From Sterolibacteriaceae bacterium (GTDB lineage: Bacteria; Pseudomonadota; Gammaproteobacteria; Burkholderiales; Rhodocyclaceae), in contig JANYCD010000075.1 in the NCBI GenBank assembly GCA_025360425.1, positions 1-40,140 on the forward strand: a stretch of DNA of 40,140 bases, written 5' to 3'. Every line of letters begins with the position of its first letter. The first letter of the stretch is position 1. Positions 17,123-32,734 of the stretch are shown here, in pieces. The notes under the pieces are model-generated. The model worked only from the letters and a program-made list of their open reading frames with translations. It ran no database searches and was not told the DNA's origin. A program made the translations under genes and the position numbers.

Positions 17123-18289
17123 ATGATGTTTTCCGGTGTTTTCGATCTTCCCTGGTGGGGTTATGTGTTGACCGTGCTGGCAATGACGCACGTCACCATC
17201 GCAGCGGTCACCATCTTCCTGCATCGTCACCAGGCGCATCGCGCGCTGGATCTGGGTCCGGTTCCGTCCCATTTTTTCCGTTTGTGGCTGTGGCTGACGA
17301 CGGGCATGGTCACCAAGGAGTGGGCGGCGATTCACCGTAAACACCACGCCAAGTGCGAAACCCCCGACGATCCTCACAGTCCGCAACAGGTGGGTTTGCC
17401 GCGCGTGTTGTTCGGAGGCGTGTTGTTGTATGTGAAGGAATCGCGCAATAGCGAAACCATGCAGCATTACGGGCGCGGCACGCCCGACGACTGGTTGGAG
17501 CGCAAGCTTTATACGCCATGGCAAAAGAGCGGCATTGTCATCATGCTGGCGATTGACATTGCCCTTTTCGGCCTCGCCCCCGGCGTCTTGATGTGGGGCG
17601 TGCAAATGCTGTGGATTCCTTTCTGGGCAGCCGGGGTGATCAACGGAGTCGGCCATTTCGTCGGCTATCGCAACTTTGCCTGCGAAGATGCCAGCACCAA
17701 TCTGATTCCCTGGGGCATCCTGATCGGTGGCGAGGAACTGCATAACAACCATCATGCCTTCCCTACCTCGGCCAAGCTTTCCAACAAGTGGTACGAGTTC
17801 GACATCGGCTGGATGTATATCCGCATCCTGGAAATGCTGGGCATGGCGCATGTCAAGAAAGTGGCGCCGCGGCCCAAGTTGGGTGCAGCGCGAACGGCAG
17901 TCGATCTGGAAACGCTGCAGGCAGTGATTACTCATCGCTACGATGTGCTGTCGAAATACCTGAAATCGCTGGGTCAGATCGCAGCGGAAGAATTCGAACA
18001 TCACAAACTGGATGCCCGTCAGAGCAAGGCCATCAAGCGTCTGCTGCATGAGGCCGGCGACGAACTCCAGGACGCTGACAAGACCCGGCTTGAGTCGATG
18101 CTCCAGAAAAGCGATCGCTTGTCCAAGGTCTATGCCATGCGTGCCGAGCTGGAGTCGCTGTGGGTTCGCTCCACCGCCACGCACGAGCAATTACTGAAGC
18201 AGTTGCAGGAATGGATCCACAACGCCGAACAAAGCGGGATCCACCAACTGGAAGAGTTCTCGCGGCGCTTGCGTAGGTACGCCCTCTGA
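17123..18289 (+). CDS. Membrane acyl-CoA/acyl-lipid desaturase with C-terminal helical extension
   Basis: This di-iron membrane desaturase is probably a delta-9 type that introduces a cis double bond into saturated acyl chains. The three His boxes are HRHQAHR (about 34-40), HRKHH (about 71-75) and HNNHH (about 207-211). Hydrophobic helices surround them. From about residue 255 the protein continues as a charged helical region of roughly 130 residues ending SGIHQLEEFSRRLRRYAL, absent from minimal desaturases but, as far as I recall, common in betaproteobacterial ones. That tail superficially resembles the C-terminus of ISL3-type transposases; I see no sign of a real transposase. It ends just before a strong bidirectional terminator. 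Confidence 0.92.
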   Translation: MMFSGVFDLPWWGYVLTVLAMTHVTIAAVTIFLHRHQAHRALDLGPVPSHFFRLWLWLTTGMVTKEWAAIHRKHHAKCETPDDPHSPQQVGLPRVLFGGVLLYVKESRNSETMQHYGRGTPDDWLERKLYTPWQKSGIVIMLAIDIALFGLAPGVLMWGVQMLWIPFWAAGVINGVGHFVGYRNFACEDASTNLIPWGILIGGEELHNNHHAFPTSAKLSNKWYEFDIGWMYIRILEMLGMAHVKKVAPRPKLGAARTAVDLETLQAVITHRYDVLSKYLKSLGQIAAEEFEHHKLDARQSKAIKRLLHEAGDELQDADKTRLESMLQKSDRLSKVYAMRAELESLWVRSTATHEQLLKQLQEWIHNAEQSGIHQLEEFSRRLRRYAL

Positions 18290-21296: not shown

Positions 21297-21327
21297 ACAC
21301 TGATCCCCTGCAGACTTGAACGTGCTA

Positions 21328-21347
21328 GCAAATGCCTTGGCATATGC
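21328..21347. promoter_or_regulatory. Putative VapB operator
   Basis: GCAAATGCC-TT-GGCATATGC is an inverted repeat with eight of nine pairs. It lies just upstream of the strong ribosome binding site AGGAGG (21356-21361) of vapB. VapB/VapBC complexes bind such palindromes to repress their own operon. Confidence 0.45.
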
Positions 21348-21365
21348 TTCAATTCAGGAGGCCCC

Positions 21366-21563
21366 ATGGATACCCAACGCCACGCCCGCTTGTTCCGGAA
21401 TGGCCGCAGCCAGGCGGTGCGCATTCCGCGCGAATTTGAGTTTGAAGGGAAAGAAGTCTTTATTCGCAAGGATGGTGACCGCTTGATTCTGGAGCCGGTA
21501 AAAAAACACAAAAATCTGCTCGCCTTGTTGGCGACGGGAACCTATCGAAGAAGAGTTTCCTGA
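21366..21563 (+). pseudogene. vapB: VapB-type antitoxin with frameshifted C-terminus
   Basis: The first 52 or so codons encode a normal AbrB/SpoVT-type VapB DNA-binding domain ([17 protein letters not shown], then [20 protein letters not shown]). The current frame ends early as [12 protein letters not shown]. The expected toxin-binding tail, [19 protein letters not shown], is present in another frame from about 21553. Adding two bases near 21537-21541 would give LLATWEP and restore it. The gene has probably lost the toxin-neutralising tail while keeping its DNA-binding part. It is followed by a truncated vapC, so the whole locus is decaying. Confidence 0.75.
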
Positions 21564-21602
21564 CATCAACGACTTGCTACCGCTCGATGACATCAAGTTC
21601 TG

Positions 21603-21842
21603 TTGTCATCCCGGCGCTATCTGCTGGACACCAACATACTCTCCGATCTGGTTCGTCGACCGCAAGGCGCCGCCGAGCGTCATATCGACCGTGTCGGTTT
21701 TCGCAACGTCTGCATTAGCGTCATTGTCGCGTGTGAAGCCCGCTTTGGTATTCTGAAAAATGGTTCGGAGCGGCTTTCACAGCAGATCGAACTCATTCTC
21801 TCCAAGCTCGACGTATTACCGCTGATTGTGCAGGAGCCCTGA
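21603..21842 (+). pseudogene. vapC: VapC-type PIN-domain toxin, C-terminally truncated
   Basis: The frame gives 79 residues starting MSSRRYLLDTNILSDLVRRP. DTN contains the first catalytic Asp of PIN-domain RNases, and SVIVACEARFGI contains the conserved Glu. It stops after LSKLDVLPLIVQEP, where an intact VapC (about 130 residues) would continue with the segment carrying the remaining acidic residues (PxDxxIAA). No frame downstream restores that part, so this is a truncation rather than a single frameshift. It is unlikely to be an active RNase. Confidence 0.75.
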
Positions 21843-21949
21843 TGCAAGGCCAACTCTTTACCCAGGACTTCCTGCACCGCATCCTGGAGTTCCCGAACGA
21901 CGAGAGCGTGCATTTTTCAGTCCGTCAGGAAGTCGATGCATTGGGGTAA
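21842..21949 (+). CDS. 35-codon orphan frame after vapC
   Basis: A short frame (MQGQLFTQDFLHRILEF and so on) starts at an ATG overlapping the vapC stop by one base (TGATG). I do not recognise it. The first dozen residues look like the N-terminus of a longer protein, so it may be a remnant joined to vapC by a deletion. Confidence 0.3.
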   Translation: MQGQLFTQDFLHRILEFPNDESVHFSVRQEVDALG

Positions 21950-22222
21950 TGGTGGAAATGAAATAGGGTAATGGCGATATCAATTACCCCATTTTTCGCG
22001 ATGGCTTCCCCCATTCAGGCTGTGGATATTGGGCTAACGCAATACCGCTGCTGGCGTGTGCTGGAGCGTTCGGCCGGCCGCATGGCAGGAATTGGTTTAG
22101 AATAAAACAAATGATCGTTTTTCAACCGTTTCAAGCGAAAATTTGCTCGACTTGGCAGGGTTCGATCAGAATCCGGTGACGACCAAAAATAACCAGCAGG
22201 ACTAACCATCAGGAGAAGAGAC
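21950..22222 (+). promoter_or_regulatory. Control region ahead of the catabolic cluster
   Basis: This 273-base stretch has no convincing gene. It holds a 7-bp hairpin (21966-21972 with 21983-21989) followed by five T, a possible weak terminator of the vapBC remnant. A possible -10, TAGAAT, is at 22098-22103, without a recognisable -35. Directly after it is a palindromic element, AACAAATGATCGTTT, at 22106-22120. A near copy occurs at 31282-31296. The strong ribosome binding site of the first SDR gene (AGGAG, about 22210-22214) is at its end. Confidence 0.5.
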
Positions 22223-22963
22223 ATGGCCGGACGATTGAGTGGAAAAGTAGCGGTGATCACGGGTGCCGGTTCCGGCATGGGTGCGGCGATGGTCGCGGCG
22301 TTTTGTGCCGAAGGCGCCAAGGTGATCGCAGCCGATATTTCGGGCAAGCAGAACGAGGTTGCCAAGGGGGCCGGCAGCGCCTGCGTGGCGGTGCAGGTGG
22401 ATGTTGCCGACAGCGACAGCATCCAGGCAATGCTCGCAACGGCGATCAAGCAGTTCGGCCGGCTCGACATCATTTGCAACAACGCCGGGGTTCAGGGCGA
22501 TAACGCCCGGACCGCGGACTACAGTCTTGCCGAGTTTGATCGCATCATGGCGATCAACTGCCGTGGCGTATTCATGGGAATGAAATACGCCATTCCGCTG
22601 ATGCTCAGAACCGGTGGTGGGTCGATCGTGAACACCTCGTCGATGGCTTCGCTGGTGGCATTCCCTGGCATGCCGGCCTATTGCGCATCGAAGGGTGCGG
22701 TGTCGATGCTGACGAAATTGACGGCTGCGGAATATGCCGCCGATAATATTCGCGTCAATGCCATCCTGCCGGGTGCCATCGATACCGCGATGGTCAAGGC
22801 GCTGCCTCCTGACGTTCGCGCTGGCGCGATCAAGGGCACCCTGATGGGACGCCTTGGCCACCCGTCCGAAATCGCCAACCTGGCACTGTTTTTCGCCAGC
22901 GACGAATCGTCGTTCATCACCGGCACCCTAGTGCCCGTCGATGGCGGATACACCCTGCTGTAA
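22223..22963 (+). CDS. Classical short-chain dehydrogenase/reductase (SDR 1)
   Basis: This NAD(P)-dependent alcohol/ketone oxidoreductase has 246 residues. It has the classical SDR marks: cofactor motif TGAGSGMG (13-20), NNAG (86-89), and catalytic Ser140, Tyr153 and Lys157 (YCASK). The C-terminus ends in ITGTLVPVDGGYTLL. An acidic residue at the end of strand 2 (AADIS) suggests NAD rather than NADP. It is first in the five-gene plus-strand run and would plausibly oxidise a ring or side-chain hydroxyl made by the oxygenases downstream. It is clearly paralogous to SDR 2 at 31419, with catalytic residues at the same positions. Confidence 0.93.
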   Translation: MAGRLSGKVAVITGAGSGMGAAMVAAFCAEGAKVIAADISGKQNEVAKGAGSACVAVQVDVADSDSIQAMLATAIKQFGRLDIICNNAGVQGDNARTADYSLAEFDRIMAINCRGVFMGMKYAIPLMLRTGGGSIVNTSSMASLVAFPGMPAYCASKGAVSMLTKLTAAEYAADNIRVNAILPGAIDTAMVKALPPDVRAGAIKGTLMGRLGHPSEIANLALFFASDESSFITGTLVPVDGGYTLL

Positions 22964-22983
22964 GGAAAAGACAGGCCAGTGTG

Positions 22984-24063
22984 ATGCGTGCCCTCGTCTG
23001 CAACGGCCCCGGCGATTTTCGTTTCGAAGATCGGCCTGTTCCGACGCCCGGTGCGGGCGAGGTGCTGGTGCGCCCGCTGTTCAACGGTATCTGTTTTACC
23101 GACAAGCATGTCTACGACGGCCACATCGGACGCAAGCCGGGCTGGGTGCTGGGCCATGAGTTCAGTGGCCGGGTCGAGGCACTTGGGTCCGACGTCAGCG
23201 AGTGCAATGTGGGCGATCTCGTTTCAGTCGATCCGCGCCTGCGCTGCGGCGAATGTCTGCCGTGTCGGGCTGGTCTGGAGACGCTATGCACGAAGGCAGG
23301 ATTCATGGGCGTCGACGGCGGTGACGGTGGACTTGCCGAGTTTGCCGTCGTGCCAGCCTACAGCCTCTATCGCCTGCCGGAAAAATGTTCGCCGCTGGAA
23401 GCGGCCTGTGTCGAAGCGGCTTGCTGCGCCACGCGGGCAACGCGCTCCGGCAATGTGGTGGTTGGCGACAACGTCGTCTTGCTTGGATTGGAGGATTACA
23501 ACCTCTACATGGCGCAGTGGCTGAAAAGCCAGGGTGCCGTCGTGATTGGTGTCGATCCGCTGGAGATACGGCGTCGGGCTGCACTGGATTTTGGCGCGCA
23601 TCATGCCTTTGATCCGACCGAGGGCAAGGCCTCCGCACGCATTCGTGCCCTCATGCCGTTCGGCGCTGATGTAGTGGTGGTGGCGCTGGAAGATTACATC
23701 CCGCAAGCGAACGAGTATGTGGCACTGGCGCATCGCATCGCGCGCATTCAGGGCAAGGTCATCATGATGCGCTCCTACGGCAGTGCGCCGTTTTTGAAAG
23801 TGCAACCCAACCATGCGTGGCTCAAGGAACTGACCATTCACCACTTCGGCAATTTTTTTGGCAACGAGCCGGCGCGCGGCGGACGCGCGCGCGGCGACTG
23901 GCAGGTAACGTTGGATGCGATGGCGCGTGGCACATTGTCAGCGCCGCCGCCAGGCGCGCTGGTGAAGCCGTTTTCGAGTTTGGCCGGCAAGGCCGATATC
24001 GATGCCTTGTTTGGAGCGATGCCGGGACAGGCCAGCAAGGTCATCATCGACATGTCAGTGTAA
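22984..24063 (+). CDS. Zinc-binding MDR-family alcohol dehydrogenase, atypical cofactor motif
   Basis: This medium-chain dehydrogenase (359 residues from ATG 22984; a GTG three bases earlier is possible) has Cys37 and His58-Glu59 (GHEF) for the catalytic zinc. The four Cys for structural zinc are C88, C91, C94 and C102 (CGECLPC, then C). The Rossmann fold is there by pattern (VVLL, then VIGVDPLE) but the expected GxGxxG is GLEDYN (168-173). That may alter cofactor binding or indicate a sublineage with a different role. It follows SDR 1 by 20 bases. Substrate unknown; an alcohol in the same pathway is the natural inference. Confidence 0.88.
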   Translation: MRALVCNGPGDFRFEDRPVPTPGAGEVLVRPLFNGICFTDKHVYDGHIGRKPGWVLGHEFSGRVEALGSDVSECNVGDLVSVDPRLRCGECLPCRAGLETLCTKAGFMGVDGGDGGLAEFAVVPAYSLYRLPEKCSPLEAACVEAACCATRATRSGNVVVGDNVVLLGLEDYNLYMAQWLKSQGAVVIGVDPLEIRRRAALDFGAHHAFDPTEGKASARIRALMPFGADVVVVALEDYIPQANEYVALAHRIARIQGKVIMMRSYGSAPFLKVQPNHAWLKELTIHHFGNFFGNEPARGGRARGDWQVTLDAMARGTLSAPPPGALVKPFSSLAGKADIDALFGAMPGQASKVIIDMSV

Positions 24064-24114
24064 ATGAATGACGACCGGGCCGATTTCCTGGCCCCACATT
24101 TTTAGGAGAAGCAG

Positions 24115-25269
24115 ATGAACGCAGTATCAGACGAAGATAAGATAGAGGCCGCGCATCTCGCGAAAGAGGCGGCACGCGCCTATCCGACCGAGGCCGAGAA
24201 GCAGTATCCGCTGCCACCCAGCGTGATTGATGTCAGCCGCTACACAGACGAGCGCTTGTTCGAGCGCGAGATGGAACAGATTTTTTACAAGACATGGTTT
24301 CCTGCCTGCCCATCGATCGACCTCAAAAATCCGCGGGACTATGTGGTCTTTGACCAGTTGCGTCAGTCGGTGATCATTTCGCGGCTCGATGACGGCAGCG
24401 TGTCGGCGTGGCACAACGTCTGCCAGCATCGCGGCACGCGTCTCGTCATGGAATCGGGCAATTGCAAACCGGGGCGTTTCTCCTGCCCGTGGCATGGTTT
24501 CCAATATGACCTGACCGGAAAAGTGCGTCTGGTTCCGTTGAAGGATTCCTTCGATCCCAAAAGACTGGAGAATCTGCGCGCTCCGGCGGTGCGGGTCAAG
24601 GAGTGGGGAGGTTTCGTCTGGATCTGTTTCTCCGACGAGGGGCCCGATCTCAAGACTTATCTTGGCACCATCGGCGAGGAACTGGACTTTTTCGGGCTCG
24701 ATAAATTCGAGACCAAATACCGCTTCCGGCTGGAACTCGATGCCAACTGGAAGATGGTGGTCGATGCGTTCAACGAGACTTGGCACGTGCCATGGACGCA
24801 TACCAAGACGTTGTCCAAGCTGGTGCTGTGGCGTGATGCACGGCTGCGGATCACCACGCCCCATAGTTGGATGACGATTCCGTTGGAAGGCTTTACCGAC
24901 AAGTTGGGCGATGTCGACCATCGTCTCAAGCATATCTGTCACTACCTCGCGTTTCCCAACACGATCTTCAGTTGCTTCCCCACGCATTTGCAAACCTGGA
25001 ACATCTGGCCGGTATCGGTGGACAAGACGATTTTCACCGCGTGGGGCGTGGTCGGGCCGAAACCGGAAGGCTTGACCGATGAGCAGTGGACCAAGCAGAA
25101 CGATCGCGACTGGAAGCATTTCTGCGCGATTTCTGCGGAGGATGCCGAGGTGCTTAATAGTTGGAAGAGCGTCTCGCATTCGCTGGGGACGCGTCAATAC
25201 ATGTTCAACACGGCGGAGAGTCGCCTGACCGCGTTCCACGCCGAAGTGGCGCGCAGAATCAGGCTTTAA
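24115..25269 (+). CDS. Rieske non-heme iron oxygenase, alpha subunit
   Basis: This 384-residue Rieske oxygenase hydroxylates or demethylates organic substrates with O2. The N-terminal Rieske domain has C103-x-H105 and C124-x2-H127 for the 2Fe-2S cluster. The catalytic domain has DAFNETWHVPWTH, with His224 and His229 as iron ligands and Glu221 at the position of the bridging acid. The third iron ligand should be an acidic residue near the C-terminus. A strong site (AGGAG) precedes the ATG. No beta subunit, ferredoxin or reductase gene lies nearby, so it is an alpha-only type or borrows partners. The substrate cannot be told from sequence. Confidence 0.93.
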   Translation: MNAVSDEDKIEAAHLAKEAARAYPTEAEKQYPLPPSVIDVSRYTDERLFEREMEQIFYKTWFPACPSIDLKNPRDYVVFDQLRQSVIISRLDDGSVSAWHNVCQHRGTRLVMESGNCKPGRFSCPWHGFQYDLTGKVRLVPLKDSFDPKRLENLRAPAVRVKEWGGFVWICFSDEGPDLKTYLGTIGEELDFFGLDKFETKYRFRLELDANWKMVVDAFNETWHVPWTHTKTLSKLVLWRDARLRITTPHSWMTIPLEGFTDKLGDVDHRLKHICHYLAFPNTIFSCFPTHLQTWNIWPVSVDKTIFTAWGVVGPKPEGLTDEQWTKQNDRDWKHFCAISAEDAEVLNSWKSVSHSLGTRQYMFNTAESRLTAFHAEVARRIRL

Positions 25270-25340
25270 GTTGCAGGTTGAATGACGGCGATCAAATTCT
25301 GCCCGGCAGAAAGATCGCCGCACCATCGGGAATGACAAGC

Positions 25341-26459
25341 ATGTCGAAACAAAAAATAGGCGTCGGCATCATCGGCGCAAACCCCGCGCGCGGCTGGGCT
25401 TTGAATGCGCACATACCGGCATTACGATCGCTGCCGCAATTTGAACTTGCCGCGGTCAGCACCAGCCGCAAGGAGACCGCTGCCGAAGCCGCAAAAGTTT
25501 ATGGCGTGTCGCTGGCGTTCGACAACCATCAGGATCTGCTGAGCCGTCCGGAAGTTGATCTGGCCGTCATCTCGGTCAAGGTGCCTTTTCATCTGGAGCT
25601 GGCCAGTGCCGCGTTGAAGGCACGCAAAGCGGTGTATTGCGAATGGCCATTGGGCAATGGCCTGGCCGAGGCCGAGCAACTGGCTGCGATGGCGCGCGAG
25701 TTTGGTGTGGTGGCGCGGGTCGGCTTGCAGGCACGTTCATCGCCGGTGGTGAATCATGTACGTCAACTGCTTGCCGAAGGCTACGTCGGCGAAGTGCTTT
25801 CCTCATCCATCGTGGCCTCGGTATCGAACTTCGGCCCGGAGGTGATTCCTTCTTCCGTTTATCTGTTGGACCGAAAGAACGGCGCGTCCATGCTCACCAT
25901 TCCCTTCGGACATGCGGTTGACGCGTTTTGCTGGTGCCTGGGCGAATTTGTCGAACTCAAGGCGACGTTTGCCACGCGTTACCCCGAGGTGAGAGTCGCT
26001 GACGGCACCAATGTGAATAGCAATATCGCGGACCAGATCAGCGTCAGCGGCACCTTGCAGAACGGCGCCGTGGCATCGATCCATTTTCACGGCAGCAAGT
26101 CGCGTGGCCCAGGCTTCCAGTGGGAAATCAATGGCACGGACGGCGATCTGCTGATCGAGGGCGTCAGCGGCCACATCCAGATGACGCCGATAAAATTAAA
26201 GGGTGCGCGCGGCGCGGAGAAAAAAGTCGCGGATCTACCGACCCCGACTTCCTGCCTCTGGGCGCCCAAGGAAACGCCCGAGGGCTCTCCATTCAACGTT
26301 GCTCAGGCGTATGTCCACGTCGCCGAAGATATGCTGACCGGCAGCAAAAAAGCGCCGACCTTCGACGATGCGGTGTTGCGGCATCGCATGATTGAAGCGA
26401 TCGTCACAGCAGCGAAGACCGGTCGTCAGCAGAGTTACGATCTGAGCAGGCCTGCATAG
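25341..26459 (+). CDS. Gfo/Idh/MocA-family protein, Gal80-like, lacking the catalytic Lys
   Basis: The protein has 372 residues from ATG 25341, which is 9 bases after GGGA; an in-frame ATG at 25332 is possible. The N-terminal Rossmann domain starts GVGIIGANPARGW. The usual EKP motif, whose Lys is catalytic in most Gfo/Idh dehydrogenases, reads C100-E101-W102-P103. CEWPLG is the pattern I associate with Gal80-like members. The C-terminal alpha/beta domain is complete. It may be a non-canonical oxidoreductase acting on a pathway intermediate, or an NAD(P)-sensing protein. It lies 71 bases after the Rieske gene. Confidence 0.85.
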   Translation: MSKQKIGVGIIGANPARGWALNAHIPALRSLPQFELAAVSTSRKETAAEAAKVYGVSLAFDNHQDLLSRPEVDLAVISVKVPFHLELASAALKARKAVYCEWPLGNGLAEAEQLAAMAREFGVVARVGLQARSSPVVNHVRQLLAEGYVGEVLSSSIVASVSNFGPEVIPSSVYLLDRKNGASMLTIPFGHAVDAFCWCLGEFVELKATFATRYPEVRVADGTNVNSNIADQISVSGTLQNGAVASIHFHGSKSRGPGFQWEINGTDGDLLIEGVSGHIQMTPIKLKGARGAEKKVADLPTPTSCLWAPKETPEGSPFNVAQAYVHVAEDMLTGSKKAPTFDDAVLRHRMIEAIVTAAKTGRQQSYDLSRPA

Positions 26460-26583
26460 GCCTTTCCATCCGCTATGGAAATCGCATTTCTATCCTGTTC
26501 GCCGACAGGCTTGTCCTCGCCTCAGATGAGTACGCCATCGCTTATCAGCGAAGCATTAGAACCATTTGCGAGGAGACTGAGCC
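26460..26583 (+). other. Hairpin-rich gap between the Gfo/Idh and P450 genes
   Basis: Three small perfect inverted repeats follow one another: 26463-26469 with 26475-26481, 26494-26498 with 26505-26509, and 26538-26542 with 26547-26551. None is followed by a T-run, so they are not typical terminators. They could act in mRNA processing or as attenuator-like elements between the first four genes and the P450. The P450 ribosome binding site GAGGAG follows at about 26569-26574. Confidence 0.35.
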
Positions 26584-27831
26584 ATGAACACTGCAGATGA
26601 CAATGCCAATTTAGAGGTTGGGCCGACAGCGGGAGAACTCAAGGCACGTTTTGGCCGCGACATTTTTCGCGATTTCGATTTTGAAGACCCCAATTTCAAC
26701 GATCACTTTTTCGACATTCTCGACGCGCAACTGGCGCACTGTCCGGTCGCGCGCAGCAACGTCGGCCACGGCTACTGGTGGGTCACCCGCAATGACGACG
26801 TGCGACGGATCGCGCAGGACTGGAAAACGTTTTCCAATGCCCTGGGCTACCACCCCAATCGCCCGGAGGGGGTTCCCTATCTGTATCCGGAAGAGTGCGA
26901 CCCGCCGATCCATACCGCATGGCGCAACCTGCTCAGTCCCTTCCTCAGCCCCAAAGCCTGCGCTGCGCTGGAGGCCATGGCGCGCGAAGACGTCAATACG
27001 CTGATCGACCGCTTCATCGGCCGCGGCGAATGCGAATTGATCAGCGAGTTCGCCGGGCTGGTGCCGGGCTGGGCGTTTTTCAAGAACGTTTGCGGCGTTC
27101 CGGTTGACGACATGCAGATGCTGATTGAAGACCTTGAATTCGCCAATTTCGGACCTGTTTCCGAGTCGGAAAAAAAAGCCAAGTGTTACGAAAAGGTATT
27201 CACTTATCTCGGGAATTTCCTCAAGCTGCGATCGCAGCAGCCTCCCAAAGGCGACATGGTGGACGGTATCGCCAAGGGGGTTATCTACAAGGACGGCAGC
27301 GCTTCGACATGGGACGAAAACCTGAGCGTATTGGTGGACCTGGTGCAGGGCGCCATCGCCACCACAACCTATGTGATGGGCTCCTCGATTCATCATCTGG
27401 CGACGCACCCGGAAGACGCAAAGCTGTTGCGGGAAAACCCGGAATTGATTCCGCAGGCCGTCGAAGAGTTCATCCGTGTTTTTCCGCCCATCGTCGGCCT
27501 CGGCCGCACCTGCATGCAGGACACCGAGATTTCCGGAACAAAGATCACGGAGGGCGATTTCGTCATGGTGGTGTATTCCGCCGCATCGCGTGACCCGCGC
27601 GTTGTGGAAAACCCGGCGAAAGTCGACATCACGCGCAAGAACATCGTCCATTCCACCTTCGGCGTCGGCCCGCACCGCTGCGTCGGTTCGAATCTGGCGC
27701 GCATGCAATTGAAGGCCACCCTGGAAGAATGGCTGAAACGGATCCCCGAGTTTTCAGTGAAGCCCGGTACCAGCCCGGTCTATAGCACGGCGTTCATGCG
27801 TTCCATGCACAAGCTGGAGTTGGTGTTTTGA
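26584..27831 (+). CDS. Cytochrome P450 monooxygenase, atypical I-helix
   Basis: This soluble class I bacterial P450 has 415 residues and hydroxylates an organic substrate using electrons from a ferredoxin. The heme loop FGVGPHRCVG has the ligand Cys366. The K-helix E-x-x-R is E295-R298, and the C-helix has HTAWR (110-114). The I-helix reads QGAIATTT (255-262): the Thr (T260) is kept but the preceding acid (Asp251 of P450cam) is Ala259. That acid normally helps proton delivery. It is the last gene of the plus-strand run, convergent with the NTF2-like gene 68 bases on; no terminator is evident between them. Confidence 0.94.
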   Translation: MNTADDNANLEVGPTAGELKARFGRDIFRDFDFEDPNFNDHFFDILDAQLAHCPVARSNVGHGYWWVTRNDDVRRIAQDWKTFSNALGYHPNRPEGVPYLYPEECDPPIHTAWRNLLSPFLSPKACAALEAMAREDVNTLIDRFIGRGECELISEFAGLVPGWAFFKNVCGVPVDDMQMLIEDLEFANFGPVSESEKKAKCYEKVFTYLGNFLKLRSQQPPKGDMVDGIAKGVIYKDGSASTWDENLSVLVDLVQGAIATTTYVMGSSIHHLATHPEDAKLLRENPELIPQAVEEFIRVFPPIVGLGRTCMQDTEISGTKITEGDFVMVVYSAASRDPRVVENPAKVDITRKNIVHSTFGVGPHRCVGSNLARMQLKATLEEWLKRIPEFSVKPGTSPVYSTAFMRSMHKLELVF

Positions 27832-27899
27832 AACGCGGCCACGGAAAAAGCTGAACGAGGTAACCGGGAGAAATTTGTGGTCTTCGTCCCTTTGCAAGT

Positions 27900-28523
27900 T
27901 CAACTCTTTCCGGCCAGGCGCGCGGCACGATCCCGAAATGCCTGGACACGCTCCGCGGGGATGATCAAGGGCCTCTGATACGAGATGTCGTTGCGGTCGC
28001 GCGACGGCTGCGGGCCACCGCGCATGATCGCGCGGAGTGCCTCATCCTGAATCTTGACTATCGTCATTTTGCTTTGGTCGAGGGAATCGGGTATCTCGGT
28101 GAGTGGGGCCCAGTCGCGGATGCAGACCCGCGCCGCGATGGCCCATCGCCCGTTGCGCTTTTCCATCCGATCGATATATCGCCCGCTGGAGTTGGCTGTC
28201 GGTGCCCCGGCGCGGTTCATCGCCAGGAACATGTAGTAAGTCTCGGTATGTGCGACATCGCCATCGAGGTCGCAGGTATGGTTTAGCACGCAGTGTTGGT
28301 GCGACAGGTGCGTCGCCGTGTGCATGGCGATTGCCCAGTCGACGAACTCCTCCGGCGTGCCGATGAACACACCATGATCATCGATGGCATCGGGGTGATA
28401 GACGGACAGCAACAGCGCCCGGTCGAGGCGGTCGACACCGCGCGAGTACGTTGCCAGCAGATCCTGAATCGCCTGCCGATCACGCAACTCTTCGACGATC
28501 TTTTCCAGATTTTCGTTGCTCAA
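27900..28523 (-). CDS. SnoaL/NTF2-like protein (1)
   Basis: This 207-residue protein has a SnoaL-type cone fold, judged by its start: a helix LRDRQAIQDLLATYSRGVDRLD, then LLLSVYHPDAIDDHGVF. This is the pattern of the family that includes scytalone dehydratase-like and LinA-like enzymes, with the Asp and a His (HLSHQHCV) in the pocket. It may be an isomerase, dehydratase or hydrolase for a ring intermediate. The TTG at 28523 is preferred because AGGAG lies 8-9 bases upstream; GTG at 28547 would add eight residues. It is the last gene of the minus-strand group, 111 bases after the BVMO gene. Confidence 0.82.
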   Translation of the reverse strand: MSNENLEKIVEELRDRQAIQDLLATYSRGVDRLDRALLLSVYHPDAIDDHGVFIGTPEEFVDWAIAMHTATHLSHQHCVLNHTCDLDGDVAHTETYYMFLAMNRAGAPTANSSGRYIDRMEKRNGRWAIAARVCIRDWAPLTEIPDSLDQSKMTIVKIQDEALRAIMRGGPQPSRDRNDISYQRPLIIPAERVQAFRDRAARLAGKS

Positions 28524-28634
28524 AGTTTTCTCCTCTCGCTGTCGCACCTTGTTGGAGGGCGCATATGCATTTCACCTAAATCAAGATCTTTTCATGAGGC
28601 CCACCGGTTTGTATTCGCGAATGAGCCCGAAGAA

Positions 28635-30272
28635 TCAGCTTAGCCGGAAACCTTCGTAGTCTTTTTTCGCGCTGTTCCAGCATTCCTCAAGGAACATGGG
28701 CATGCCGCCGACGAAATAAAGCGATTCGAGTTCCCGTCCTGGGATGTTGCCGCCGAACCACCAGCTACGGGTGCGTGACAACAGTGAGGGACTGGAGACG
28801 GTTTTGACCTTCTCCAACCAGTACGCCTCCGCCTCCGGCGTCGCGTTGATGCGGTTGAGCTTCTTGTCGCGCATGTACTTGATGCAAGCGACGACCCATT
28901 TGCCCTGGTGTTCTGCGAGGGAAGGGCCATTGGCCACCGCTGCGGGGGATTGCGGACCATAGACGAAGAACAGATTCGGGAATCCGGCGGATGCCGTGCC
29001 ATACGCTGTTCGGAAGCCCTGGCTCCAGTACTGGGCCAGCGTCTTTCCTTCGATGCCGTGGATATCGATGCTGGGGACGCCGCCAGTCACTGCGTCGAAG
29101 CCGGTGCCGAGCAGGATGATGTCCAGTTCATGGAATTTATTTTTGGTCTGGATGCCCTTCGGCGTGACGCGCACGACGGGGTCAGCCTTCATGTCGGCCA
29201 GCTCGACATTGTCCTGGTTGAACATGTCGAAATACCACTGCTCCAGGCCCATGCGCTTGGTGCCGTAGAAGATCGGCTTTTCTGCGGGCGCGAGTTTTTC
29301 AGCGACCTCGGGATTTTTCAGGCGGGCGTGCACCTTGTCGCGCCAGAACACGTAGGCCGCCTCGTTGACTTCCTCGTCGACCAGCGTTTCCCTGAAGGTG
29401 CCGAGCCACGGGTGGAAGGCACCTTCCTGCCAGACTTTCTCAAACGTGGCCTGGCGTTCTTCGGGCGTGCAGTCGTACCAGGATTTGGCCAGGAACTCGT
29501 AGTCAAAGCCAGCGAAGGAGGTGCCGCGCAGCTTCATGATTTCCGGATAATCCTTTTTCATTTCCTTCTGCGCTTCCTTGTCGAGTTTTACCTGGCGCAG
29601 CGGCAGCGCCAGCGCCGGCGTGCGCTGGAAGACCGTCAAGTGTTTCGCCTTCAGACTGGCCTGTTCGGCGAGCTGCACACCGCTGGAGCCAGTGCCGATC
29701 ACGGCAATGCGCTTGTCGGTGAAGTCGATGCCCTCCTGCGGCCAGCGCCCGGCGTGTGCCATTTGGCCGGCAAAGCTGTCGAGCCCCTCGATCTCGGGGA
29801 TGTAGGGCTTGGAGGCGAAGCCGGTGCAGATGACGAAATAGCGGGCGCGGACCGTATCACCCTTATCCGTCTTGATGACCCACTGGTTTTTGTCCTGATC
29901 GAACATTGCCGATTCGATGCGCGTACTGAGCTGTACATCCTTGCTCAAGTCGAGCTTCTTGTCGACGTACTTGAAGTACTCGCGGATTTCGGTCCAGGCC
30001 GGGAACAGCTCGGTGTACTCCCAATCTTTCCAAAGATCTTCGCGTGAGAACTGATAGAGCGGGCAGGTGGAATCGACGCGCGCGCCCGGATAGCAGTTCC
30101 AGTACCAGATACCGCCGATCTGCGCGGCGTTGTCATAGACCCTGACCTTGAAGCCGAGGTCGCGCAATTGCATCAGTTGGTACAGGCCGGCAAAGCCGGC
30201 GCCGACGATGAGTACATCGAGATCTTCCACTGCGTCGACCTTCGGCGCAGTCCCATTGCTGGTTGTGTTCAT
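28635..30272 (-). CDS. Type I Baeyer-Villiger monooxygenase
   Basis: This FAD- and NADPH-dependent flavoprotein inserts oxygen next to a ketone to give an ester or lactone. The protein has 545 residues, like cyclohexanone monooxygenase. FAD motif GAGFAG is at 24-29. The GGIWYWNCYPGARVDS segment is at 53-68. The family fingerprint F-x-G-x3-H-x3-W-P is met by FAGQMAHAGRWP (167-178). The NADPH motif GTGSSG is at 193-198. The ATG at 30272 has AGGAG nine bases upstream. It lies just downstream of an esterase gene, a typical pairing for ketone to ester to acid plus alcohol. The substrate could be alicyclic, terpenoid or steroidal; the sequence does not decide. Confidence 0.95.
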   Translation of the reverse strand: MNTTSNGTAPKVDAVEDLDVLIVGAGFAGLYQLMQLRDLGFKVRVYDNAAQIGGIWYWNCYPGARVDSTCPLYQFSREDLWKDWEYTELFPAWTEIREYFKYVDKKLDLSKDVQLSTRIESAMFDQDKNQWVIKTDKGDTVRARYFVICTGFASKPYIPEIEGLDSFAGQMAHAGRWPQEGIDFTDKRIAVIGTGSSGVQLAEQASLKAKHLTVFQRTPALALPLRQVKLDKEAQKEMKKDYPEIMKLRGTSFAGFDYEFLAKSWYDCTPEERQATFEKVWQEGAFHPWLGTFRETLVDEEVNEAAYVFWRDKVHARLKNPEVAEKLAPAEKPIFYGTKRMGLEQWYFDMFNQDNVELADMKADPVVRVTPKGIQTKNKFHELDIILLGTGFDAVTGGVPSIDIHGIEGKTLAQYWSQGFRTAYGTASAGFPNLFFVYGPQSPAAVANGPSLAEHQGKWVVACIKYMRDKKLNRINATPEAEAYWLEKVKTVSSPSLLSRTRSWWFGGNIPGRELESLYFVGGMPMFLEECWNSAKKDYEGFRLS

Positions 30273-30311
30273 GGTGCTCAATCTCCTGTTGCTGATTCTC
30301 GTGTTTGTTGA

Positions 30312-31220
30312 TCAGAGGCCAAGAATGGGCTTGACCCAGCTCGCCATTCTTTGCACGGCATCGTCCGCTTCCGGCGCGGTGCCGGCCATCAGCTCGAAGC
30401 AGTGCTGCATCTCCGGAAAGATGTCGATCTTCACGTTCACGCCGGCGCGTTTTGCGCTTTCGGCGGCACGCGTGCTGTCATCCATCACGGCTTCGTAACC
30501 ACCGACCTGAATGTAAATCGGCGGGAAACCTTTGTAGTCGATACACAGTGGATTGGCCAGTGGATCCTTCGGATCACCGTTCGGCCCAAGGAACAACTGG
30601 CCGATGATTTCCGACATGCCGCGTGTGACCAATACATCCGTTTTGCTATTGGTGTCGTAGCTTGCCCCCGATGTATCTGCGCCTGCCCACGGAGACATCG
30701 GCATGGTGGCCGCCGGTATCGGCAGCTTCTGCGCACGGATGGCGGCGACCGTGGTGAGCGACAGCGCGCCACCTGCAGAGTCTCCAACCAGTGCAATGTC
30801 GTTCGATTTGAATCCCTGCTCCAGCAACCAGCGGTATGCATTGACCATGTCGTTGACCGGTGCGGGATGCGGAGATTCCGGCGCCAGACCGTAGTTGACG
30901 CTCAATGCCTTGCAGCCCACCGCCTTAGCGATGTGCCCGAAGAGTTTGCGGTGCGTGTACATCGAGCCGGCCACATAGCCGCCACCATGGGCGCACAGCA
31001 AAACCTTTTTTGCGTTGCAGCCTTTGGGAACGACCCACATCGCGGCTATCGATCCGGCATCGACCTCGATGTAGTCAACGCCGCCCGGTTCGGCCGTCAC
31101 GTCGCCCCAGTGATCGAACATGCGTCGCATCTCCGGCATCGACATGTTCGGGTTCGCTGTCTGCGCTGCCGCCCAGGTCTTGTACAGCGTGGTGAGCTCC
31201 ATCGATTCCGGACTGGCCAT
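30312..31220 (-). CDS. Alpha/beta hydrolase of the hormone-sensitive lipase family
   Basis: This 302-residue carboxylesterase has the HSL-family oxyanion motif HGGG (78-81) and nucleophile Ser148 in GDSAGG. Asp247 (AVMDDS) and His273 (MQHCFE) complete the triad. No signal peptide is seen, so it is cytoplasmic. ATG 31220 is chosen because AGGAG lies about 11 bases upstream and the longer frame lacks support. It is first in the minus-strand group, 39 bases before the BVMO gene. The natural inference is hydrolysis of the ester or lactone made by the BVMO. Confidence 0.92.
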   Translation of the reverse strand: MASPESMELTTLYKTWAAAQTANPNMSMPEMRRMFDHWGDVTAEPGGVDYIEVDAGSIAAMWVVPKGCNAKKVLLCAHGGGYVAGSMYTHRKLFGHIAKAVGCKALSVNYGLAPESPHPAPVNDMVNAYRWLLEQGFKSNDIALVGDSAGGALSLTTVAAIRAQKLPIPAATMPMSPWAGADTSGASYDTNSKTDVLVTRGMSEIIGQLFLGPNGDPKDPLANPLCIDYKGFPPIYIQVGGYEAVMDDSTRAAESAKRAGVNVKIDIFPEMQHCFELMAGTAPEADDAVQRMASWVKPILGL

Positions 31221-31418
31221 TTTGCTTTTGCTCCTCTTTGTTGGATGGGGCAGTCTGCGCTGCCCACTCATGTGATAATCACAACAAACGATTGTTTGGC
31301 CACTATAAATGAGCCCAATGGCATGTCAACCGGAATCAATCAAAATGTTCCTGTGGGCAAGGGAGGCAGCGCGTTTTGCTCAACAGGGCCACTAATAAAA
31401 CTGGGGGAGACTCGCTTC
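31221..31418. promoter_or_regulatory. Divergent control region of the esterase-BVMO group and SDR 2
   Basis: This 198-base gap between divergent genes holds a perfect 11-base palindrome, GTGATAATCAC (31271-31281), directly abutting AACAAACGATTGTTT (31282-31296), which has CAAAC/GTTTG arms. The second element matches the one ahead of SDR 1 (22106-22120) at 13 of 15 positions. TATAAA at 31303-31308 is a possible -10 toward SDR 2, though no -35 stands out. The layout suits a repressor or activator acting on both directions. Confidence 0.5.
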
Positions 31419-32159
31419 ATGGGCGAAAGATTGAAAGGAAAAACTGCGGTGGTCACCGGTGCCGCAACAGGCATTGGGCGAGCCATCACCGAACGCTTTT
31501 GTCAGGAGGGCGCACGGGTGTTGGCGGTGGACTTGTCGGGCCGGCAAAACGCATTGGCGGAAAGCCTGGGGTCGGTCTGCATTCCCTTTCAGGCCGACGT
31601 ATCCAGGGGTGAAGAGATGCAGGCGCTGTTCGAAGCGGCACGCACGCACTTCGGCAAACTGGACATCCTGTGCAACAACGCCGGGATCAAAGGACACCTT
31701 GCGCTGACCGAGGATTACAGCGAGGAACATTTCGATCAGGTCTGGAACGTCAACGGCCGCAGCATTTTTCTGGGCATGCACTACGGGTTGTCCCTGTTGC
31801 GAGCAAACGGTGGCGGTTCGATCATCAACATGGGCTCCATGGCCAGCGTGGTGGCGGCGTCGCATATGATCGCCTACTGTGCCGCCAAAGGCGCCATTCG
31901 CATGATGACCAAGGTGACCGCCGTCGAATATGCCAGCCAGGGCATCCGTGCAAACTGCATTTGCCCTGGTACCATCGACAGCGAATTGCTCTCCCGTTTG
32001 CCGCGCAGCACGATACAGAACATGGTGGACAACAGCCCGATGAAACGCCTCGGCCAGCCGGAGGAAGTGGCGGCACTCGCCGTGTTCCTGGGCAGCGACG
32101 AATCGCGTTTCATTACCGGAACGGAGATAATGATCGACGGTGGTATCACCGCAATTTAG
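31419..32159 (+). CDS. Classical short-chain dehydrogenase/reductase (SDR 2)
   Basis: This 246-residue SDR is paralogous to SDR 1. The cofactor motif is TGAATGIG (13-20), NNAG is at 86-89, and catalytic Ser140, Tyr153 and Lys157 (YCAAK) are at identical positions. It ends ITGTEIMIDGGITAI. VDLS after strand 2 suggests NAD. GGGGGAG precedes the ATG by about eight bases. It is divergent from the esterase-BVMO group and followed by a small NTF2-like gene. It probably oxidises a second alcohol in the pathway, for instance the one released by ester cleavage. Confidence 0.93.
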   Translation: MGERLKGKTAVVTGAATGIGRAITERFCQEGARVLAVDLSGRQNALAESLGSVCIPFQADVSRGEEMQALFEAARTHFGKLDILCNNAGIKGHLALTEDYSEEHFDQVWNVNGRSIFLGMHYGLSLLRANGGGSIINMGSMASVVAASHMIAYCAAKGAIRMMTKVTAVEYASQGIRANCICPGTIDSELLSRLPRSTIQNMVDNSPMKRLGQPEEVAALAVFLGSDESRFITGTEIMIDGGITAI

Positions 32160-32234
32160 CCAAGAAACTGGTGCGCTACGAAATGAAAACTTTTGCGACG
32201 TTGTATATTCATTAACTTAAAACCAAGGAGAAAG

Positions 32235-32651
32235 ATGATGTCGACCAGATCGATAGTTCAGGCTTACATGGACAAAATGTGCAGTGGCGATTTTGCCGGC
32301 GCCTTTGAGTTGTTCGATCCCGAGGGCAAATACACCATCATTGGTGACACGCCCGCATCAAAGACCTACATTGGCATCAAGGGGGTGCAGGAAGGATTAT
32401 TTCCGTTGCTGTCTGAAGGATTCACGGGCCCTCCCACGATTAAACTACTCGAACTGATTATCGATGGTAATCGCGGCGTCGCCCTTGCGACCGGTTCGGC
32501 ACCGGCAAAATACGGCACATACACCCAGAAGCACTATGCCTTCGTGTTCAAGGTCGAGAATGACAAGGTGACGGAGTTGATCGAGTTCATGGATCCGACC
32601 CAACTTCATACCAAGGTGTTTGGCCAGCAGCTTTCTCCGATTCCGGCCTAG
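32235..32651 (+). CDS. SnoaL/NTF2-like protein (2)
   Basis: This 138-residue single-domain protein of the SnoaL/ketosteroid-isomerase-like superfamily starts with the usual helix (IVQAYMDKMCSGDFAGAFELFDPEGKY), has a curved sheet and closes with KVTELIEFMDPTQLHTKVFG. AAGGAG is at 32225-32230. It could be an isomerase or dehydratase; it is not clearly related in sequence to the other NTF2-like protein in the cluster beyond the fold. It is the last gene of the cluster, followed by a strong terminator. Confidence 0.82.
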   Translation: MMSTRSIVQAYMDKMCSGDFAGAFELFDPEGKYTIIGDTPASKTYIGIKGVQEGLFPLLSEGFTGPPTIKLLELIIDGNRGVALATGSAPAKYGTYTQKHYAFVFKVENDKVTELIEFMDPTQLHTKVFGQQLSPIPA

Positions 32652-32684
32652 ACTTTCATCTATCGTTTCGGTTTCAGGAAAGTA

Positions 32685-32714
32685 AAAAACGGCACCCAGC
32701 AGGGTGCCGTTTTT
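32685..32714. terminator. Bidirectional intrinsic terminator
   Basis: A 13-bp perfect stem (32685-32697 with 32702-32714) has a 4-base loop. The inner CGGCACCC/GGGTGCCG is flanked by A- and T-runs. It can end the SDR 2/NTF2-like transcript (+) and the malate synthase transcript (-). Confidence 0.92.
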
Positions 32715-32734
32715 ATTTGCGGAAATTTATGCGC

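Follow-up and report, generated by a model that had tools for sequence, protein, structure and literature searches.

The 40,140 nt stretch of a Sterolibacteriaceae genome analyzed here (contig JANYCD010000075.1, referred to as the window, and as C13 among the host contigs) contains, at positions 22223–32651, ten genes encoding a cytochrome P450, a Rieske oxygenase alpha subunit, a type I Baeyer-Villiger monooxygenase (BVMO), a hormone-sensitive-lipase (HSL)-type esterase, two short-chain dehydrogenases (SDR1 and SDR2), a zinc-dependent MDR alcohol dehydrogenase, a Gal80p-like protein of the Gfo/Idh/MocA type and two NTF2-like proteins (SnoaL_4 and SnoaL_2). These genes are probably a detached branch of one catabolic regulon that extends across phyla and appears to be controlled by a TetR-type regulator; the sequence comparisons support the regulon itself well. 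The connecting element is an operator-like palindrome that is shared with a coenzyme A (CoA) locus on another contig of the host (C82) and with loci in other genomes. It turns ten plausible enzymes into a testable unit, and it points to the regulator (the TetR encoded in C82), to further members in the host, and to named species that carry the system and could be used in screens for substrate and inducer. A preliminary description of the window had taken the genes for a coherent oxidative catabolic set, and the shared palindrome bears this out.

An operator-like palindrome shared with other loci

Two copies of the palindrome lie in the window, each with one mismatch to the form AAACAA-N4-TTGTTT. 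The first (AAACAA-ATGA-TCGTTT, positions 22105–22120) precedes the unit that starts with SDR1, while the second (CAACAA-ACGA-TTGTTT, positions 31282–31297) lies between the divergent units starting with the esterase and SDR2. Directly upstream of the second copy, a promoter-like sequence on the minus strand (TTGACA-16-TATAGT, 31302–31329; 11 of 12 positions) might serve the esterase-BVMO-SnoaL_4 unit; overall, the promoter scan was not above shuffled sequences (six found, 4.5 expected).

The sequence common to the two window sites, AACAAAYGATYGTTT, was searched in other loci, leading to the fuller form given above. Of the 21 other loci of the system (353 kb), 11 contained exact, unaltered copies of AACAAAYGATYGTTT, at 11 places in all; the 50 comparison loci (885 kb, a set without locus L179) contained none. 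This count is a check free of any post hoc choice of form. When one mismatch was allowed, 34 places were found in 16 of the 21 system loci, versus a single place in the 50 comparison loci. The fuller form with no more than one mismatch occurred at 55 sites in the 22 system loci, window included (394 kb); 27 of them were exact and 20 loci were positive. Forty-nine of the 55 sites lay within 300 bp upstream of a called start, a placement that applies to 27% of the sequence. The 51 comparison loci (905 kb) contained one copy, located in L179, a locus fetched because of that copy. The comparison set was composed of other BVMO, P450 and Rieske loci, other host contigs, and the equivalent slots of related genomes. 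Three loci with P450 relatives and no Rieske gene (L060, L032 and L033) were placed in this set, and no site was found in them. L075 and L059 are one and the same contig, which entered the palindrome statistics once, as L059. Two of the system loci lacked a copy: L077, in which two LuxR-type regulators were identified, and L129.

In the host assembly (2.47 Mb, 84% complete), a pattern of this form with a Y-R centre was detected, at one mismatch or fewer, at five places: the two window sites (C13:22105 and C13:31282), C82:3514, C82:16047 and C22:21666. The C82:3514 site precedes a P450 gene, and C82:16047 a run of genes for MaoC, thiolase, zinc-ribbon, CoA-ligase, thiolase, hydratase, amidohydrolase and CoA-transferase proteins. 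When the window sites are left out, two of the other three sites lie on C82, which makes up 1.4% of the assembly (about 6e-4 under even placing). Twenty further places had two mismatches, including C82:16979, which precedes the TetR gene, and C82:1645, between an acyl-CoA dehydrogenase gene and a CoA ligase gene; since a reversed control pattern gave 12 places in the host versus 25, the two-mismatch class is largely due to chance.

The C22:21666 site precedes a gene for an SMP-30/Vgb-like protein, followed by genes for a DUF7064 protein, a phosphotransferase-like protein, one unnamed protein and an SDR. Relatives of the DUF7064 and phosphotransferase-like proteins occur together in the Rieske locus L074 (50% and 43% identity). 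The phosphotransferase-like protein is closest to a copy encoded in host contig C36 (54%), in which no palindrome was found in the 20 kb read. The two-mismatch site at C76:27470 precedes a gene for a small membrane protein that lies together with genes for COX3- and COX4-like proteins (C76:27466–29271, corresponding to 9466–11271 of L180), and relatives of the membrane and COX3-like proteins are encoded in the Rieske loci L069, L074, L077 and L079 (25–51%).

Distribution of the Rieske oxygenase and the P450

The Rieske gene (24115–25269, plus strand) is the most specific marker of the system. Its product has the cluster ligands CQH and CPWH and the iron site NETWHVPWTH of a Rieske non-haem oxygenase. 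A bridging glutamate in place of aspartate is a trait of CntA, one of the glycine-betaine/carnitine-type Rieske monooxygenases (GbcA/CntA), and this glutamate (NETWH) is present in all 14 aligned Rieske sequences. The protein scored 119 bits against the NCBIfam GbcA equivalog, for which the cut-off is 670; its sequence thus places it as a relative of the GbcA/CntA type that is not GbcA itself. Among 369 genomes of the class, the host alone had the gene (E 1e-50), and the five other Rieske proteins of the host are not close (25–35% identity). A scan of 84,980 species with a two-sequence Rieske alignment identified 15 loci, 14 of which (55–72% identity) are distributed over Proteobacteria and Actinomycetota; L082 (33%) was left out of the 14. 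The scan requires one of two exact peptides, so that the 14 loci are a lower bound.

The P450 (26584–27831, plus strand) contains the heme-loop cysteine (FGVGPHRCVG) and the ExxR motif (EEFIR) of cytochromes P450. The acid of the I-helix acid-alcohol pair, which is common but not universal in P450s, is replaced by Ala or Gly in all 14 aligned members of the family. Its nearest solved chains include CYP101 enzymes. The P450 family was detected in three of 297 genomes of the host's taxonomic family, the host being one of them (E 1e-60). In half of the 14 Rieske loci (L069, L073, L075, L076, L077, L078 and L079) a P450 with 55–61% identity is encoded in the same locus, and at E 1e-80 the family was found, in that locus or elsewhere, in 11 of the 14 Rieske-bearing genomes. 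In the Frankia and Protofrankia genomes the P450 gene lies away from the Rieske locus, beside a relative of SDR1 and the palindrome. Palindrome, Rieske gene, P450 and a TetR gene of the C82 family were found together in L069 (a gammaproteobacterial metagenome-assembled genome, MAG), L073 (Pseudonocardia acidicola), L076 (Novosphingobium lentum) and L078 (a Novosphingobium MAG); the rest of the 14 loci had fewer than four of these marks in the stretch examined.

The CoA locus and its candidate TetR regulator

On host contig C82 there are two genes each for CoA ligases, hydratases and thiolase-type proteins, and one each for an acyl-CoA dehydrogenase, a CoA-transferase, a MaoC-like protein and a zinc-ribbon protein; the last two designations follow the annotation of the Rhodococcus sp. 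008 plasmid. The contig also encodes a P450 and an SDR that are 64% and 58% identical, respectively, to their window counterparts. The 14 Rieske loci likewise contain, in various combinations, genes for CoA ligases, acyl-CoA dehydrogenase, enoyl-CoA hydratases, thiolase-type proteins and the zinc-ribbon protein; MaoC-like proteins, CoA-transferase, amidohydrolase, ferredoxins, ferredoxin reductase and TetR are encoded in various of them. The earlier remark that CoA ligase and thiolase genes are missing thus describes the window correctly, but does not apply to the regulon of which the window appears to be part, whose CoA genes on C82 share the palindrome. The idea that their lack marks a self-contained upper pathway is not supported, as CoA genes with the same palindrome lie on C82 and their homologues are found near the Rieske gene in other genomes.

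The TetR gene of C82 (C82:16164–16817) has relatives in nine Rieske loci and two in Rhodococcus sp. 008; these proteins are 36–91% identical among themselves and have a similar recognition region. The third-best solved relative of the C82 TetR is KstR2 (E 3e-19), and the half-site skeleton and spacing of the published KstR2 site, AnCAAGnnCTTGnT (given in the available part of PMC3068626), agree with those of the palindrome. A classical steroid regulon of the KstR2 type, acting on rings C and D and marked by genes such as ipdAB and fadD3, would account for both likenesses. However, the structures 3vpr and 3dcf score better than KstR2, and the KstR2 core GnnC is not conserved in the palindrome, which therefore does not correspond to the operator AnCAAGnnCTTGnT; a steroid regulon is very unlikely. 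Our preferred reading, a distinct TetR regulon, would have the C82 TetR bind the palindrome and, by analogy with KstR2, which the accessible text of PMC8700777 describes as responding to a CoA ester, answer to such an ester. Two other regulators were considered and set aside: PheR, which according to the portion available of PMC13273656 is of the IclR type and has a different site, and EdcR, whose palindrome differs in the accessible text of PMC8700777.

The BVMO and the esterase

The fingerprint of type I BVMOs consists of FxGxxxHxxxW(P/D) plus two GxGxxG motifs. The window BVMO (28635–30272, minus strand), with FAGQMAHAGRWP, GAGFAG and GTGSSG, belongs to this type. The HSL-type esterase (30312–31220, minus strand), a proposed lactone or ester hydrolase, has intact HGGG and GDSAGG motifs. 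The closest solved relative of the BVMO is 6jdk, and the following ones include phenylacetone monooxygenase. The best NCBIfam match of the BVMO is PtlE (204 bits), and the P450 matches pentalenolactone synthase (85 bits), as could be expected of a cluster for the biosynthesis of a secondary metabolite similar to pentalenolactone. Both scores fall far short of the curated cut-offs (1100 and 700 bits), the window genes scanned include neither a terpene synthase nor another scaffold enzyme, and the palindrome-linked genes are of the CoA-catabolic kind; such a cluster is extremely improbable. Neither a steroid nor a pentalenolactone assignment could be made through NCBIfam, the matches being below the curated cut-offs.

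A search with the BVMO only gave matches in 16 of 150 genomes of relatives, host included (E 1e-60), the others at 34–42% identity. In a sample of 398 genomes of the phylum it was detected in three, the host among them (E 1e-150); the palindrome was absent around the two other BVMOs (45–53%). Among plasmids, the nearest pairs of a BVMO with an esterase of the same type were those of Cupriavidus (BVMO 52%, esterase 61–62%) and Actibacterium (BVMO 46–48%, esterase 62–63%). In Cupriavidus pMTS2 the pair is followed by genes for an Fe-type alcohol dehydrogenase and an aldehyde dehydrogenase, with the glutarate hydroxylase GlaH (451 bits, cut-off 333) encoded nearby on the opposite strand; the Actibacterium pair is accompanied by a semialdehyde-type dehydrogenase and by a CoA-transferase similar to succinate-glutarate CoA-transferase, though below its cut-off (503 versus 750 bits). 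By analogy, these contexts suggest chemistry from ring ketone to lactone to hydroxy acid for the BVMO-esterase pair.

These two contexts, with their dehydrogenases, GlaH and CoA-transferase and without the palindrome, are what would be expected if two unrelated pathways merely lay side by side in the window: the Rieske, P450, SDR1, Gal80-like and SnoaL_4 genes as part of the TetR regulon, and the BVMO, esterase and SDR2 genes as a separate pathway for small cyclic ketones of the cyclopentanone or cyclohexanone type. The window esterase-BVMO unit nevertheless has the palindrome next to a promoter-like site, and its last gene is SnoaL_4, a member of the first group; two pathways are an unlikely explanation. 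In Rhodococcus sp. 008 and D14_bin-0553, units containing a BVMO gene carry the palindrome and encode an SMP-30-type hydrolase; these BVMOs form another clade, being 77% identical to each other and 36–37% to the window BVMO. From these sequences, the regulon seems to have acquired a BVMO plus a hydrolase on two or more occasions, from different genes each time; we take this as our best argument for the opening of a ring or ester being a regular step.

Several observations count against the regulon explanation. The form AAACAA-N4-TTGTTT was settled after the sites in other system loci had been viewed. In the window alone, at up to two mismatches, it was not above shuffled sequence (three found; mean 0.9; largest of 30 shuffles three). 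Further, the clustering of sites in the host loses some of its weight when the two window sites from which the motif was derived are set aside, and our confidence in the regulon explanation, still held as probable, was lowered slightly for this reason. The Sporichthya locus L077 has the Rieske, P450 and SDR1 genes, with no site at one mismatch and no TetR of the C82 family in the 11.5 kb examined. The P450 was not found in three of the 14 Rieske genomes at E 1e-80. Neither the esterase nor SnoaL_2 was matched in any of the 14 Rieske loci, and the MDR protein and SDR2 had no close counterpart there (weak matches, 27–29%, in L074). Finally, the Cupriavidus and Actibacterium BVMO/esterase loci lack the palindrome, and the low identity (36–37%) between the window BVMO and the palindrome-bearing ones means that their ketones may differ. 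One locus that had seemed related, that of Sphingopyxis sp. FD7 (L127), was discarded: it encodes an SDR1 relative (69%), a BVMO (33–34%) and an amidohydrolase, but in the 36 kb examined neither the palindrome nor a match to the Rieske enzyme or the P450 was found.

Dehydrogenases, Gal80-like and SnoaL-like proteins

The SDR YxxxK motif is intact in the translations. Relatives of SDR1 (22223–22963, plus strand) are encoded near the same type of P450 in host contigs C82 (58%) and C60 (65%), in Rhodococcus sp. 008 (55%) and in a Sporichthya MAG (54%), as well as in the Frankia and Protofrankia genomes. The C60 locus (L049) has a third P450 of the family (56%) near the SDR1 relative and no palindrome at one mismatch, so that it apparently lies outside the regulon. 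For the MDR protein (22981–24063, plus strand), no close relative was found among plasmids or solved structures.

The closest solved relative of the Gal80-like protein (25341–26459, plus strand) is Gal80p itself (E 3e-33). The usual motif of Gfo/Idh/MocA proteins is EKP, whose lysine occurs in the catalytic members of the superfamily. The window protein has EWPLG, aligned to EWALA of Gal80p, and like the latter has a tryptophan at the lysine position. EWPLG is present in all five relatives of 43–51% identity and GWPLG in the frameshifted L073 copy, with other letters in two distant relatives (25–26%; L084 and L127). The window protein may be an enzyme or a sensor. In Sphingobium TKS and MI1205, Microvirga and Pseudonocardia, the gene of the Gal80-like relative has a SnoaL-type gene next to it or close by, which is not the case in Ancylobacter; in the Sphingobium plasmids and Microvirga (L083, L138 and L137) genes for EWPLG-containing Gal80p-like proteins overlap or adjoin SnoaL/NTF2-like genes, a recurring pair.

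In SnoaL_4 (27900–28523, minus strand), a Tyr, an Asp and a His are kept across seven aligned relatives. Its structure model (mean pLDDT 77) matches the cystatin-like fold; the best structural matches were uncharacterised proteins, followed by the BaiE dehydratase and LinA, and they also included CaMKII hubs and beta subunits of oxygenases. Since these matches are mixed, a dehydratase or isomerase is only a likely assignment. SnoaL_2 (about 32238–32651, plus strand) is rare, with one match in 72,556 plasmid records.

Gene layout and genomic location

A reading of the open reading frames of the window found all ten genes intact within 22223–32651, with no internal stops, just as they had been delimited from the sequence before. 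Gene starts were chosen by us from coding score and upstream context; a listed start at 25161 for the Gal80-like gene is unlikely, since that gene would then overlap the Rieske gene. Judging from strand and spacing, three transcription units are inferred: SDR1, MDR, Rieske oxygenase, Gal80-like and P450 genes (plus strand); esterase, BVMO and SnoaL_4 genes (minus strand); and SDR2 (31419–32159, plus strand) and SnoaL_2 genes (plus strand). With three units spread over both strands, a single ten-gene operon is ruled out. No ferredoxin or reductase gene was called within the cluster, so that electrons for the P450 and the Rieske enzyme must come from carriers encoded elsewhere.

The cluster is flanked by coaBC and dut upstream and by the malate synthase gene downstream. 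The interval between dut and the malate synthase gene (21297–32734) measures 11.4 kb in the host, and 0.7 kb (G004), 2.1 kb (G005) and about 21–23 kb (G007, G009, G003 and G002) in six relatives. Apart from the flanking proteins, no window protein matched a called gene in the stretches of these six slots that were read (18.3 of about 21.1 kb for G002). As the flanks are kept and the interval varies, the cluster occupies a variable slot in the host's family. Its G+C content (0.58) is the same as in other stretches of the host (0.58) and close to that of the remaining window (0.59), and composition is therefore uninformative on a recent arrival. Between dut and the cluster (about 21366–21840), reading by eye revealed a gene for a VapB-like antitoxin followed by a truncated, frameshifted VapC-like remnant. 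Elsewhere in the window (17123–18289), a single open reading frame matched the Pfam profiles of both fatty-acid desaturases and ISL3-type transposases, by fusion or overlap.

Proposed pathway and substrate

The order of chemistry may be inferred as follows. A TetR, the relative of KstR2, would repress all units until a CoA-thioester intermediate binds. The P450 and the Rieske monooxygenase would hydroxylate unactivated carbons of an alicyclic, isoprenoid-like skeleton, and SDR1, the MDR enzyme or SDR2 would convert the alcohol into a ketone. The BVMO could then insert oxygen, the HSL-type enzyme hydrolyse the resulting lactone or ester, and a second dehydrogenase oxidise the freed alcohol, with SnoaL_4 perhaps contributing a dehydration or isomerisation. 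The C82 enzymes would shorten the acid as its CoA ester. The substrate is probably a ring-shaped natural compound, our best guess being one of alicyclic or isoprenoid type, with alicyclic terpenoid acids or ketones as candidates. The preliminary description had suggested alicyclic, terpenoid or steroid-type molecules; an alicyclic or isoprenoid compound remains the best guess, and the terms "steroid-type" and "terpenoid" are neither shown nor excluded.

The steps could also run in the opposite order, with the CoA locus acting first: its CoA ligase, hydratase and thiolase-type aldolase would cut a methyl-branched acid side chain down to a methyl ketone, the BVMO and esterase would remove acetate, and the P450 and Rieske enzyme would attack the ring. 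Abscisic acid and ionone-like compounds fit this order, and C82 indeed encodes two thiolase-type proteins and a zinc-ribbon partner, a pair that we take to be a DUF35-type aldolase; phenylacetone monooxygenase is among the closest solved BVMOs after 6jdk. In Rhodococcus sp. P1Y, abscisic acid is converted via dehydrovomifoliol into rhodococcal acid, with a BVMO suggested for the second step in the parts available of PMC9599779 and PMC7996341. That suggested step (PMC9599779) favours the side-chain order and makes abscisic acid an attractive candidate for testing. The palindrome-bearing BVMO unit of two other lineages, however, includes an SMP-30-type hydrolase, which favours cyclic lactones. 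We regard the side-chain order as rather improbable.

For the regulon that we prefer, a broader proposal is offered tentatively, as possible rather than probable: an undescribed cross-phylum TetR regulon through which bacteria living in soil or associated with plants could draw carbon from a widespread alicyclic isoprenoid, which might be a plant hormone such as abscisic acid, or a related terpenoid acid. It would combine a Rieske/P450/CoA core under one conserved operator with exchangeable BVMO-plus-hydrolase modules of different ancestry captured by that operator.

Comparison with known systems

The view that the gene set matches no known operon still stands, as no operon or locus of such make-up, and no characterised counterpart, was found in the titles and abstract starts of the open-licence PMC papers searched. 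When the same ten genes were looked for in other genomes, as proposed at the outset, the full set was missing from all 14 loci identified through the Rieske gene. The best of these, in Pseudonocardia acidicola (L073), had five of the window types: P450, Rieske oxygenase, SDR (33%), SnoaL_4 (63%) and a frameshifted Gal80-like gene (40%).

Operons for cyclopentanone and cyclohexanone degradation comprise genes for a dehydrogenase, a BVMO, a lactone hydrolase and further dehydrogenases. The order from ketone to lactone to hydroxy acid is the same here, as judged from gene make-up, but the window adds a P450, a Rieske enzyme, a Gal80-like protein, two SnoaL-like proteins and a palindrome shared with a CoA locus. 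The camphor and cineole pathways employ a P450, a dehydrogenase and a BVMO, and the logic of P450 hydroxylation followed by dehydrogenase and BVMO is alike. Unlike P450cam, which has the I-helix acid, the window P450 lacks it; the extra Rieske oxygenase and the TetR/CoA regulon are further differences. The KstR2 regulon of mycobacteria and rhodococci, as far as described in the available part of PMC3068626, also has a TetR repressor, divergent catabolic operons and a short palindrome (AnCAA-N4-TTGnT). It differs in the core of the palindrome, whereas the regulon proposed here includes a P450, a Rieske enzyme and a BVMO and has units on several contigs.

The Rieske/CoA loci of Novosphingobium lentum, Pseudonocardia acidicola, Streptomyces acidicola, Frankia and others differ from the window in that CoA genes lie beside the Rieske gene; in the stretches examined, the HSL esterase and SnoaL_2 were unmatched, and the MDR protein and SDR2 had no close match. 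They nevertheless contain an orthologous Rieske gene and, in many cases, the P450, the palindrome and the TetR. The palindrome further suggests that it is the shared switch, and not gene order, by which enzymes captured next to BVMOs of different families can be assigned to one pathway.

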